This document shows positions 96 to 5,196 of a DNA stretch of 6,865 nt, piece after piece. Both the position numbers and the translations under genes were made by a program. The stretch is from an uncultured Erysipelotrichaceae bacterium (lineage in GTDB: Bacteria > Bacillota_I > Bacilli_A > RF39 > UBA660), in contig CACZQV010000015.1 in NCBI GenBank assembly GCA_902783435.1, forward strand, positions 1-6,865, written 5' to 3'. Under the pieces are notes generated by a model. That model was not told the origin of the DNA, did no database searches, and worked only from the letters and a program-made list of their open reading frames with translations. How positions within the stretch are numbered: the first letter of the stretch is position 1; each line of letters begins with the position of its first letter.

Positions 96-410
96 TTACA
101 CTGTTTTATTATTATTTTTATCAATATTTTCACTTTCTAATAAATTTAATTTAGTATATAACTCTTCTAATTGTTCATCATTTAATGAATCTACGTATGC
201 AGATGTGTATTCATGATGGATTTTTCTTAAGTTATATTGACTAATAATTTCTCCTGCAGTAGCACTTGCAGATGTTAAAACTGTAGTTGTTAAAGCTCTA
301 TTTCTTTTCTTTTCATCTACTGTACCATCTTCATTAAGAGTATAACATGTTGTACTTACTCCTCCAACTGAAGTTGTTGATGATAATACTGTACTTCCTA
401 ATATTCCCAT
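96..410 (-). CDS. Small Ser/Thr-rich protein, third member of a local paralogous family (104 aa)
   Basis: I do not recognise a known family. The N-terminus (1-25) is uncharged and rich in Ser, Thr, Val and Gly, beginning MGILGS. It is followed by a short charged linker (about 27-38), a second uncharged Thr/Ala/Ser segment (about 39-54), and a predicted amphipathic helix with YVDSLNDEQLEEL (72-84). The tail is Asn/Lys-rich. The IxG start, the second uncharged segment and the Y-[IV]-[DE]-SL motif are shared with the 92- and 97-residue proteins nearby, making this the most divergent of three paralogs. The ATG has a GGGGG ribosome binding site 8 bases upstream that overlaps the TAG stop of the preceding 256-residue gene, so the two are probably translationally coupled. 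No cleavable signal peptide is evident. Confidence 0.8.
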   Translation of the reverse strand: MGILGSTVLSSTTSVGGVSTTCYTLNEDGTVDEKKRNRALTTTVLTSASATAGEIISQYNLRKIHHEYTSAYVDSLNDEQLEELYTKLNLLESENIDKNNNKTV

Positions 411-422
411 TATTATATCCCC

Positions 423-1193
423 CTATCTTACCATTTGTTTTGGTTTATTATCTTTATATGATACACATTCTTTTCTTTCTTTTTGTGCTTCATATACTAG
501 TTTTTTTAATTGTTCTAATTGTTTTTTATTTTCAATGTTATCAACTATTTCATCAATAGTTGGAACATCTGCTTTTTTAGTAAATGTTTTATGTATTACA
601 CTAGCTGCTTCACTATATTCTTCTATATTTTTCTCTAATCTTTTTTCTTCTTTTTTCTTTAATGTTTCTTCTGCTATTTTATATCTACAAATATTATAAT
701 CTTGAATATTTATACATTCGAAGTTAATTCCAGCACTTATTAATTCTATTATTAATAAAGGTAGGGCACCAGGTATCTGTGTAATTGATCCAGCTACTAA
801 AAAAGGTATTACTATAGCGTCTTTAATAAGCCCTTTTTTGTGGATATCTTTATTCCAATTTAAGTATTTTATTATCTCTGTTGGTTTTCTATTATCTATA
901 TGATAGTTTCTATTTTTTTCTTGGTTAAATTCTTTTCTCATAGCCATTTTATCAAATGATATTTTTGTAATAATACTATTAATTTGTTCTTCTGATGTAG
1001 CTTTGTTAATAGCTCTTTTCTTTTTAAAATCACAGTATTTATCAAAATACTTTGGAAAATTTGGACATATTGTTTTTAGTACTTTGAATTTTGCTTTTTC
1101 TACTCCAAATACTACCTTTTGAAACTTTTCTGCACCTAGTGCTTTATGAAATTCCATTTTTTTCTTTAGTTTTTTCTTTTCTAATTTATCCAT
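423..1193 (-). CDS. Unrecognised protein with a hydrophobic hairpin between charged helical arms (256 aa)
   Basis: The family is not recognised. The N-terminal third is strongly basic (Lys-rich from residue 5; KKKR at 57-60). Residues 126-158 form one long hydrophobic stretch broken by a Gly/Pro turn (around 140-145), consistent with a membrane hairpin or two short membrane helices. Residues 172-192 and 215-242 are charged, Glu/Lys-rich and probably helical or coiled-coil. Cysteines occur at 43, 54, 160, 169 and 243. It lies between the 92-residue and 104-residue paralogs, 20 bases after the former and 12 before the latter, in the same operon, so a joint role is likely. I infer a membrane-attached or membrane-remodelling partner of the small proteins. 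Nothing indicates an enzyme. A TTG start at 1199 is possible but the ribosome binding site favours ATG at 1193. The stop is the only TAG in the window. Confidence 0.8.
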   Translation of the reverse strand: MDKLEKKKLKKKMEFHKALGAEKFQKVVFGVEKAKFKVLKTICPNFPKYFDKYCDFKKKRAINKATSEEQINSIITKISFDKMAMRKEFNQEKNRNYHIDNRKPTEIIKYLNWNKDIHKKGLIKDAIVIPFLVAGSITQIPGALPLLIIELISAGINFECINIQDYNICRYKIAEETLKKKEEKRLEKNIEEYSEAASVIHKTFTKKADVPTIDEIVDNIENKKQLEQLKKLVYEAQKERKECVSYKDNKPKQMVR

Positions 1194-1200
1194 AACCAAG

Positions 1201-1206
1201 CCCCTT
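1201..1206 (-). promoter_or_regulatory. Ribosome binding site that sets the start of the 256-aa gene
   Basis: On the minus strand AAGGGG lies 7 bases before the ATG at 1193 but only 1 base before the alternative TTG at 1199. Normal spacing therefore selects ATG, making the protein two residues shorter than the longest open frame. The same AAGGGG core precedes the 92-residue gene. Confidence 0.75.
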
Positions 1207-1213
1207 ATTATAT

Positions 1214-1492
1214 TTATATATGTTTATGATTTTCTTCTATTTGCATATAGTCTTCTTTTTCATTTAATAATTGGTCTAATTCAGCTAATTGTTCTACTGA
1301 TAATGAATCTATGTATCTACTTGCAAAATCAATATTTACTGAATTATATCCTTTTAATAATGCTACTGTAGCTATAGATGTTGATGTTGATGCAAATGGA
1401 TTCATGTTTATCTTCGTTTTGTCTTCATATTTAATTGTAACCGAACCCATTGTAGTTGTTGTAGCTACTGCTCCTAATATTGGTAATTTCAT
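1214..1492 (-). CDS. Small Ser/Thr-rich protein, second paralog, first gene of its operon (92 aa)
   Basis: The family is not recognised. Residues 1-20 are nearly uncharged and rich in Thr/Ala/Val/Gly, beginning MKLPILG with a run of four threonines at 11-14. A charged linker (21-29) follows, then a second uncharged segment (33-46) ending in LLKGY, then the helix motif YIDSLSVEQLAEL (60-72), and a tail ending in IEENHKHI. It aligns throughout with the 97-residue protein (MNIPIVG; LLYNGY; YIESLSDDEL; IEETHSKSI), so the two are clear paralogs. It has a strong promoter at 1521-1549 and an AAGGGG site 10 bases before the ATG. The 256-residue and 104-residue genes follow at short distance. The two uncharged segments could be short membrane-inserting or self-assembling helices, but this is only inference from composition. 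Confidence 0.82.
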   Translation of the reverse strand: MKLPILGAVATTTTMGSVTIKYEDKTKINMNPFASTSTSIATVALLKGYNSVNIDFASRYIDSLSVEQLAELDQLLNEKEDYMQIEENHKHI

Positions 1493-1520
1493 TTTTTTAA
1501 TTCCCCTTCACTGAGCACAT

Positions 1521-1549
1521 ATTATAACATAAAACACTAAAAATAGCAA
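1521..1549 (-). promoter_or_regulatory. Strong extended -10 promoter of the 92/256/104-aa operon
   Basis: On the minus strand TTGCTA (1544-1549, 4/6 match to TTGACA) is separated by exactly 17 bases from a perfect TATAAT (1521-1526). That box is preceded by TGT, giving the extended -10 form TGnTATAAT. Transcription should start near 1514, about 20 bases before the ATG. The -35 box lies entirely inside the 3' arm of the upstream gene's terminator hairpin. Confidence 0.8.
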
Positions 1550-1566
1550 GTTATATTGACTTGCTA
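1539..1566 (-). terminator. Intrinsic terminator of the 97-aa gene, overlapping its coding end
   Basis: A perfect 8-bp inverted repeat, TAGCAAGT / ACTTGCTA (arms 1559-1566 and 1544-1551), with a 7-base loop, is followed on the minus strand by TTTTT (1543-1539). The 5' arm is coding sequence for the last residues (Ser-Lys-Ser) of the 97-residue protein and the stop codon is in the loop region. The 3' arm contains the -35 box of the next promoter. Confidence 0.75.
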
Positions 1567-1844
1567 TGTGTTTCTTCTATTACTATATTCTCATCTTTCC
1601 CAGTTAGTTTTTGTTCTAACTTATATAATTCATCATCTGATAATGACTCTATATAGCTTTTTGTTAATTCCATATCAATTTTTACATCTTTGTAGCCATT
1701 ATATAGTAATACTGAACCTGTTGTTAGGGTACTAGATGTTTCAACAAGATTAACTGCTGCTCTTTCTTCGTCATCTGATCCAATTACATTAGTTACTCCT
1801 AGTGTTGATGTAACTGCCATACTTCCAACTATTGGTATATTCAT
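1551..1844 (-). CDS. Small Ser/Thr-rich protein, first paralog, own transcription unit (97 aa)
   Basis: The family is not recognised. The layout matches the 92-residue protein: an uncharged start (1-22) beginning MNIPIVG, an acidic linker (DDEE at 24-27), a second uncharged segment (36-48) leading into LLYNGY, the helix motif YIESLSDDEL (64-73), and a tail ending IEETHSKSI. The start codon is supported by GAGGTG 5 bases upstream. A terminator overlapping its last codons and a candidate promoter after truA indicate it is transcribed alone. Its last residues are encoded in a terminator stem, which constrains them at the DNA level, yet the tail resembles that of the 92-residue paralog, which has no such stem. 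It might be a small surface, membrane or secreted peptide, but no signal-peptide charge pattern is seen. Confidence 0.8.
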   Translation of the reverse strand: MNIPIVGSMAVTSTLGVTNVIGSDDEERAAVNLVETSSTLTTGSVLLYNGYKDVKIDMELTKSYIESLSDDELYKLEQKLTGKDENIVIEETHSKSI

Positions 1845-2637: not shown

Positions 2638-3429
2638 TTACCTCCTTTTTACATGTTTATAGATATCTTTTATAATATCTCTTATGTCTTTATGATAATC
2701 TATTTTTATATCTTTCTTTTTAGCTAAGTATGTTATTAATACTATTTCTGGTATTTCTATAGAGTTTTTCTTTAAGAAATCTACTCTTTGAAATGTATTA
2801 GAAGTAGTATCTTCTATTATTATTTTATTATTCTTACTAATAATCATATTATCAGTGTATTTATATAACATAGTTGTATCATCACTTATGAATACGATAG
2901 TTTTATGATATTTTTCCTTCATTTTTTGATAAAGTGAATATATTTCTTTTTCTTTTTTCATATCTAAACCAATAAATGGTTCTTCTACTATTATTAATTC
3001 TGGATTAGAAAGTAAAGATATACTTAATTCTATTAATTTCTTTTCAGAACTAGATAAAGTAATTAAATCTCTATTTAGATATGTATAATCTAATCCTACT
3101 ATTTTTAATGAATCTAGTATTTTTTTTCTAGGGTTTTTTAGAGCTAGACCTTTTCTTTTTATTTCATAATACATTGACTCATATACTTTACCTTGAAAGT
3201 ATTTATTTAACATATTTTTCTTTATTATTACTATTCTATTTTTGTATTCATTTATATTTATATTACTTTTTCTATTAATAGTTATTTTTCCATTATAATT
3301 ATTCTTTAAATAGATAATATTTTCTATTTCTTCTTTTGAATTACCAGTAATACCAGTAATCATTTCTTCTCTTATAGTAAAACTAATAGTATTTTTTCCT
3401 AATTCGTAGTCTTTAACCTTTATTTCCAT
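2638..3429 (-). CDS. ecfA2: Degenerate EcfA2-like ABC ATPase (probable pseudo-ATPase, 263 aa)
   Basis: By position and by ungapped stretches of similarity this descends from EcfA2, one of two ATPases that power ECF-type vitamin and metal-ion importers. Key residues are altered. The Walker A region reads GITGNSKEE (26-34): Lys32 is kept, but the preceding Gly is Ser31 and the following Ser/Thr is Glu33. The Q-loop Gln is Lys (about residue 70-71). The signature is LSSSE (125-129) rather than LSGGQ. The Walker B Asp is Glu149, followed by a retained catalytic Glu150. The switch His is Asp183. The D-loop GLD (154-156) is intact. The EcfA-like C-terminal region (after about 212) remains. It probably cannot bind ATP normally at its own site but might complete the site of its partner. 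It overlaps the upstream ATPase gene by 10 bases. Descent is fairly sure, activity is not. Confidence 0.85.
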   Translation of the reverse strand: MEIKVKDYELGKNTISFTIREEMITGITGNSKEEIENIIYLKNNYNGKITINRKSNININEYKNRIVIIKKNMLNKYFQGKVYESMYYEIKRKGLALKNPRKKILDSLKIVGLDYTYLNRDLITLSSSEKKLIELSISLLSNPELIIVEEPFIGLDMKKEKEIYSLYQKMKEKYHKTIVFISDDTTMLYKYTDNMIISKNNKIIIEDTTSNTFQRVDFLKKNSIEIPEIVLITYLAKKKDIKIDYHKDIRDIIKDIYKHVKRR

Positions 3430-4962: not shown

Positions 4963-5196
4963 TTACTTCTTTTTAATTCTTCTTTCTAATTTTTTTATAA
5001 GTGCGACTGGTTTACTATATATAACATCATCTAAATCATTTTCTATTTTTCTTTTTTCTTCTTTCATAGAAGTTCCTGCATAAACAAAAGTTGAAGAATC
5101 TCCTAATAATACTGTTTCACCATTTTTAACTGATGCGAACATTGATTGATCACCAGAACGTATTAAAATTATTTCTTCATTGGATGTTTTATTCAT
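4963..5196 (-). CDS. Small hypothetical protein (77 aa), first gene of the SDR-truA unit
   Basis: I do not recognise the family. Residues 1-40 look like a small beta-rich unit (EEIILIRSG, FASVKNGETVLLG, TFVYAG), and residues 44-77 are charged and helical, ending in a basic stretch (KKLERRIKKK) that might bind nucleic acid or membrane phospholipid. No signal peptide or membrane segment is seen. The gene is well supported as real. An extended -10 promoter lies just upstream, AAAGGAGA precedes the ATG by 6 bases, and the stop codon overlaps the ribosome binding site of the SDR gene 9 bases on, so the two are likely coupled. It stands where ecfA1 usually follows rplQ. Confidence 0.75.
   Translation of the reverse strand: MNKTSNEEIILIRSGDQSMFASVKNGETVLLGDSSTFVYAGTSMKEEKRKIENDLDDVIYSKPVALIKKLERRIKKK

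Follow-up and report, generated by a model that had tools for sequence, protein, structure and literature searches.

The first 6,865 nucleotides of contig CACZQV010000015.1 (assembly GCA_902783435.1, an uncultured Erysipelotrichaceae bacterium), hereafter called the window, carry a minus-strand cassette in which three small Ser/Thr-rich proteins are encoded around a helical-hairpin protein (HP), in the order small1 (1551..1844, 97 aa), small2 (1214..1492, 92 aa), HP (423..1193, 256 aa) and small3 (96..410, 104 aa). It is practically beyond doubt that HP and the small proteins form a linked system, and profile comparisons make it very probable that HP belongs to the superfamily of CrtO (glycosyl-4,4'-diaponeurosporenoate acyltransferase, PF18927). 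HP could be an acyltransferase-like protein dedicated to the small proteins and acylating their Ser/Thr hydroxyls, a reading that we place somewhat below an even chance. The original prediction, made from the sequence letters, had described three paralogous small proteins and a 256-residue protein, and all four open reading frames (ORFs) lie where it put them, on the minus strand. It had also proposed a real multi-component system of tandem paralogues and a membrane partner, to be checked by the co-occurrence of homologues, and this has held, the pair being found in 27/27 strong HP loci and at several genomic sites.

The linkage was examined in 385 genomes of one order, which we take to be RF39 or a close one. 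The HP profile matched 21 of these genomes at E <= 1e-3, 18 of them strongly (E <= 1.4e-37); two of the three weak matches contain stops, and the third is locus L032, considered below. The small-protein profile matched 23 genomes, 17 strongly (E <= 3.1e-7), the six weak matches being other ORFs that, judged by eye, are without the Ser/Thr-rich layout. Strong matches to both profiles were found in 16 genomes, to HP only in 2, to the small protein only in 1 and to neither in 366 (Fisher p 3e-25, a value that ignores shared ancestry), which corresponds to a strong small-protein match in 16/18 strong-HP genomes vs 1/367 others. The two HP-only genomes, G132 (L029) and G353 (L027), do have an adjoining Ser/Thr-rich ORF, missed by the profile. 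One family (145 genomes) gave 10 matches, 8 of them strong, and in a class-wide sample 3/395 genomes matched, all three already among those of the order. RF39 has been described as an order of Bacilli that has not been cultivated and whose genome is highly reduced (PMC12306168).

At the level of individual loci, an adjacent Ser/Thr-rich small ORF was found in all 27 strong HP loci (L001-L006, L014-L030 and L034-L037, with the duplicates L007-L013 and weak matches excluded), a set that includes the near-copy pairs L020/L021, L018/L019 and L024/L025. The neighbour test, devised after seeing examples, takes a same-strand ORF of 80-235 aa, at most 400 bases from HP, with a Ser/Thr-rich uncharged stretch; as background, 4/64 other same-size ORFs in HP loci pass the Ser/Thr test. 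The nearest small ORF lies within 35 bases of HP or overlaps it in 25/27 loci, the distances in L002 and L004 being 47 and 341 bases, respectively.

As regards the kinship of HP, the starting point was a likeness to CrtO, and the first hint in the data was that 2/44 HPs matched PF18927 weakly (best E 0.0013). The bridge is provided by L032:1285-2016, which exceeds the PF18927 cut-off (34.2 vs 27.3 bits) and whose homologues carry PF18927 in 105/108 cases among the matches listed. When the 27 HP rows were compared with 43 CrtO-like rows of the same order, relatives of L032, the alignment reached Prob 99.0, E 4.5e-18 and a score of 130.8 over 183 columns. With a 50-row version, to which seven CrtO of other Bacilli were added, the score was 122, vs at most 20.4 in 30 column shuffles and 22.3 for reversed HP, and comparison with the unrelated families truA, SDR, rplM and rpsI gave scores of 9-19. 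The 43 CrtO-like rows are themselves tied to the seven CrtO of other Bacilli, two of which adjoin a glycosyltransferase family 2 gene: the comparison scored 77.6 (E 1.4e-10), vs 15.7 or less in 20 shuffles. The matched features of HP and the CrtO-like rows span most of the length and comprise Y-E-x-L-G, N-Y, N-x-x-x-H, N-x-x-C-x-x-x-Q-x-Y-N-x-x-R and a C-terminal helix module. The histidine before the hairpin is invariant, as H118 in 27/27 HPs and as the aligned residue in 43/43 CrtO-like rows and 7/7 CrtO rows of other Bacilli, and of the Q-x-Y-N motif Q164 is kept in 27/27 HPs and Y166 and N167 in 23/27 each.

HP would be, on these comparisons, a divergent relative of CrtO and not a CrtO, its remote homology being detectable only through relatives. 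CrtO has, like HP, a hairpin with an invariant His before it, and after it a Q/L-x-Y-N motif that HP keeps for the most part. Unlike CrtO, HP is longer, has a basic N-terminal domain, is without A-E-x-x-H and the Arg of Q-R-Y-N, fails the PF18927 cut-off and has Ser/Thr-rich small partners. Inspection by eye of the ORFs listed for the window and the 27 HP loci revealed no carotenoid genes, with flanks mostly of ~1.5 kb and at most ~8 kb, the rest of the genomes not being searched. The closest relatives of HP found are CrtO-like proteins from this order, L032:1285-2016 among them, which share its motifs and its C-terminal helix module; however, they fall on a separate branch, the 27 HPs forming their own against five CrtO-like rows with support 100/100. 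A Ser/Thr-rich small neighbour was found in 0/17 PF18927 loci, including 10 loci of the order (18 loci were given of ~24 distinct, with split, interrupted and weak ones excluded, and one had no core ORF by the pattern). PF18927 is over its cut-off in 12/385 genomes, and G238 alone among these also has HP. The claim in the original prediction that no known family could be recognised is not supported in that form: neither HP nor the small proteins pass any curated Pfam or NCBIfam cut-off, but HP has remote homology to CrtO through relatives. The CrtO-like PF18927 family (L032, L076-L087) consists of proteins of ~210-250 aa, in varied genomic contexts in the loci inspected.

A total of 175 HP homologues were found at E <= 1e-3, and the alignment of the window HP with 43 of them (from the 120 listed) contains 25 invariant columns. 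In the 27-row set, which includes far more divergent HPs, Y97, L111, N114, H118, C160 and Q164 are present in 27/27, and N96, K115, N157 and N162 in at least 25/27, with N96 in 26/27. These residues are grouped in short motifs, all coordinates being on the minus strand: N-R-N-Y-H at residues 94-98 (900..914), with Y97 and N96; N-K-x-x-H at residues 114-118 (840..854), whose His corresponds in the alignment to the invariant one of CrtO-like rows; and N-F-E-C-I-N-I-Q-D-Y-N-I-C-R at residues 157-170 (684..725), which aligns with N...C...Q-R-Y-N of the CrtO-like proteins.

The AlphaFold2 model of HP is all-helical and confident (pLDDT 89), with a long antiparallel hairpin formed by predicted helices at residues 104-137 and 143-206, the turn of which lies within the hydrophobic stretch 121-159 (717..833). 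The hairpin predicted earlier at residues 126-158 is thus present, its extent being slightly wider. From the register of the model, the invariant residues flanking the membrane stretch would stand at the same height, close to the cytoplasmic interface. The 120 N-terminal residues contain 33 basic vs 15 acidic residues, an excess that is consistent with a cytoplasmic N-terminus. In the structure search, the ExbB/TolQ/PomA and SMC-like hairpins share with HP a long helical hairpin. Residues 211-242 (468..563) form the C-terminal helix module, which may bear a faint likeness to the Y-[IV]-[DE]-S-L-S module of the small proteins: the two scored 21.4, above the 60 shuffles (at most 11.1) and the reversed profile (13.0), though hardly above the unrelated SDR family (18.1).

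With regard to the small proteins, small1-3 are paralogues beyond shared composition: the pairwise local scores are 139, 96 and 78, whereas shuffling within halves, repeated 2000 times, gave means of 32, 37 and 35 (p <= 0.001). They have in common, as had been noted in the original prediction, an I-[VL]-G start, two uncharged segments and a Y-[IV]-[DE]-S-L helix, together with an IEE..H tail in two of them. The helix of small1 reads YIESLS..EL, and the C-termini of small1, small2 and small3 are SKSI, HKHI and NKTV, respectively. An alignment of 32 relatives, taken from loci and proteins, contains two uncharged segments of at least 11 residues near the N-terminus in 31/32 and one in 1/32. A charged linker separates the two segments, and a helix like Y-[IVL]-[DE]-S-L-S-x-E-E-L follows, in which residues corresponding to Y72 and S75 of small3 are kept in at least 90% of the aligned proteins.

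These proteins are extremely rich in Ser and Thr, which make up 45% of the apolar segments, vs 18% in 121 apolar segments of other ORFs of the same loci, and 31% of the first 60 residues, vs 11% in 128 background ORFs taken at full length. Asn+Gln are lower in the first 60 residues (6% vs 10% in background ORFs). The apolar segments are mildly hydrophobic, with a best 17-residue Kyte-Doolittle mean of 1.05-1.49 vs 1.94 in HP. Segment 2 has the pattern of an amphipathic, Thr/Ser-rich helix, with a helical hydrophobic moment at z 5.8 vs shuffles; segment 1 showed neither helical (moment z -1.25) nor strand periodicity. A C-terminal [KR]-x-[LIVMF], picked after inspecting the sequences, ends 17/32 small proteins vs 17/128 background ORFs (p 6e-6). 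The single-chain structure model of small3 is poor (pLDDT 50.5).

Taking these features together, the following mechanism can be proposed. HP would be a divergent CrtO-superfamily acyltransferase seated in the cytoplasmic membrane through its helical hairpin, and N114, K115 and H118, before the hairpin, would meet N157, C160, N162 and Q164, after it, at the cytoplasmic membrane face. The adjoining small proteins would be its dedicated protein partners, with segment 2 lying at the membrane in the form of an amphipathic helix, and the C-terminal Y-[IV]-[DE]-S-L-S helix docking on HP or on other small proteins. Finally, we infer that HP would acylate Ser/Thr hydroxyls in the small-protein helices, leading to membrane anchoring or assembly. 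Acyl transfer to these hydroxyls would be the simplest mechanism to bring together several facts: the family His is kept and Q-x-Y-N mostly so, no lipid gene was seen to recur beside HP, and the helix is crowded with hydroxyls. Whether HP is still an enzyme is to us an evenly balanced question, and it is rather doubtful that the small proteins are its substrates. More unlikely still is the full proposal of a bacterial protein O-acylation system in which a CrtO-derived membrane enzyme with an interface His (possibly with Cys160) would put fatty acyl chains on Ser/Thr hydroxyls along one helix face of the adjoining small proteins, giving multiply lipidated subunits without a lipobox.

Several results weigh against acylation of the small proteins by a CrtO relative. 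The window HP has no PF18927 match at E <= 1, and the best-scoring HP scanned, L023, reaches 24.0 bits vs a cut-off of 27.3. Over 385 genomes the E of 4.4e-4 with which L032 matches the HP profile falls short of significance, and the direct comparison of HP with the seven CrtO gave E 2.8e-5 and Prob 74, with the post-hairpin part alone aligned. In the structure search the AlphaFold2 model of HP had no significant structural neighbour. The Arg of Q-R-Y-N is replaced in all HP rows shown, and the Glu of A-E-x-x-H, found in 5/7 CrtO rows, gives way in HPs to Lys (26 rows) or, once, to Arg, so that the HP site may be dead or changed. In the 32 aligned small proteins no Ser/Thr of the apolar segments is invariant, which argues against one fixed acylation acceptor. 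Genome G147, the one with a strong match to the small protein only, contains an orphan small gene (L054, 1405-1791) with no HP gene beside it, where a tblastn search with HPs for a decayed copy returned only matches at E >= 0.13.

These losses can also be accommodated if HP is a non-catalytic scaffold that forms, with the small amphipathic proteins, a structural complex, a pore or a membrane-shaping assembly. Acylation and such a complex are in our opinion equally likely, each having rather less than an even chance. In addition to the missing Arg and Glu, the scaffold is favoured by the small-protein sequences, which vary freely while composition and amphipathic helix are kept; by the fact that HP is accompanied by at least two small paralogues in the window and 4/27 loci (L003, L026, L034, L036), as in the subunits of a hetero-oligomer; and by the overlap of small and HP ORFs in 9/27 loci. 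However, the invariance of Y97, N114, H118, C160 and Q164 over 27 divergent HPs seems to be more than a scaffold needs.

A different possibility, improbable in our estimate, is that HP, like CrtO, has a lipid or glycolipid as its acyl acceptor, the small proteins being its activators or regulators and not its substrates. The acceptor of CrtO is a hydroxyl group on a glycosylated, membrane-bound carotenoid, which it esterifies, in agreement with the Pfam name. In L068-L070, three loci from other Bacilli, the gene of a CrtO relative comes directly after two others; in L068, where alone the families were identified, these encode an acyltransferase of the PlsC type (PF01553) and the C-terminal part of a GT8 glycosyltransferase. 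This arrangement suggests a glycolipid pathway, maybe not a carotenoid one. Nevertheless, among the listed ORFs no glycosyltransferase or lipid gene was seen by eye to recur beside HP, and the extreme Ser/Thr richness of the small proteins would be left unexplained.

Still less probable is a role of the small proteins as membrane-active toxins or bacteriocin-like peptides, with HP providing immunity or export. They are small, amphipathic and paralogous, and the distribution is patchy, with strong HP matches in 18/385 genomes. Nonetheless, the cassette occupies chromosomal sites by ribosomal-protein, truA, yqfD or ylbD genes; PADLOC gave no match at E <= 1 and PHROGs none that was significant (best E 0.023); 0/51 pattern matches in viral contigs encode an HP relative; and kinship to CrtO is unlike the immunity proteins known to us. 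Finally, a chance neighbourhood of unrelated ORFs of biased composition, which the short, biased small proteins and the background rate of the Ser/Thr test could suggest, is already refuted by the recurrence of the pair in 27/27 loci and 16/18 genomes, and its probability is negligible.

The pair is undescribed in the family libraries and the literature searched, most subscription journals falling outside that search and absence from print not being shown by it. The analysis turns two orphan families of Bacilli, known here from metagenome assemblies only, into a testable enzyme-partner hypothesis. It also adds a branch with protein partners to the CrtO superfamily, which Pfam names after a staphylococcal enzyme of pigment synthesis. 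If the small proteins were acylated, this would be, as far as we know, a route to lipidated proteins not yet described in bacteria. One group of small-genome Bacilli may thus build small membrane proteins, or tag them with fatty acids, in an undescribed way.

The cassette is found between truA and rplM in 13/26 fetched HP rows of the tree and elsewhere in the rest, gene names being our own reading and L029, one of the 13, having rplM alone. Among the relatives L001-L006, all contigs of metagenome-assembled genomes, the cassette is followed in 5/6 by genes that we read as rplM and rpsI, and the context of L004 differs. One of the other sites is beside a YlbD_coat gene and another beside a YqfD gene. 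The HP tree contains at least 4 changes of site, but repeated movement of the cassette is not shown, because well-supported branches force just 1. Links to the cell wall and to sporulation were considered and dropped, since neither marker is positively associated with the cassette, even if some cassettes adjoin YlbD_coat or YqfD genes: mraY is over its cut-off in 24/27 cassette genomes vs 45/48 others, and the SpoIVA ATPase domain in 21/27 vs 45/48.

The reading frame of HP is counted here from an ATG, a 258-aa form starting at an upstream TTG, and small3 follows HP after a 12-base gap. A terminator-like stem (1543..1567, minus strand) overlaps the final codons of small1 and its stop; in positions 1-2700 there are 2 terminator-like sites vs 0.3 expected, both being this stem, one per strand. 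Thus, small1 may be transcribed apart from small2-HP-small3. A promoter-like site, TTGCTA-17-TATAAT (1521..1549, minus strand), stands before small2, with such sites not enriched over shuffles in the region (19 found vs 20.1 expected).

The window is a piece of a low-G+C Bacilli chromosome whose genes read on the minus strand, every reading frame being intact under table 11. Upstream of the cassette the order is the end of rpsK, rpoA, rplQ, a 77-aa ORF, a short-chain dehydrogenase (SDR), two ABC ATPases and truA, these names, beyond the Pfam matches, being our own reading. The 77-aa ORF (4963-5196), between rplQ and the SDR gene, has no family over cut-off. The two ATPases have the place and type of EcfA in our reading; the SDR gene adjoins the pair, and no EcfT-like gene was noticed there. 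The second (2638-3429), with an ABC_tran score of 30.9 bits, low yet over the cut-off, has a GNSKEE-type sequence in place of the Walker A GxGKST, an abnormality that recurs, by eye, in L001, L002, L003 and L006.

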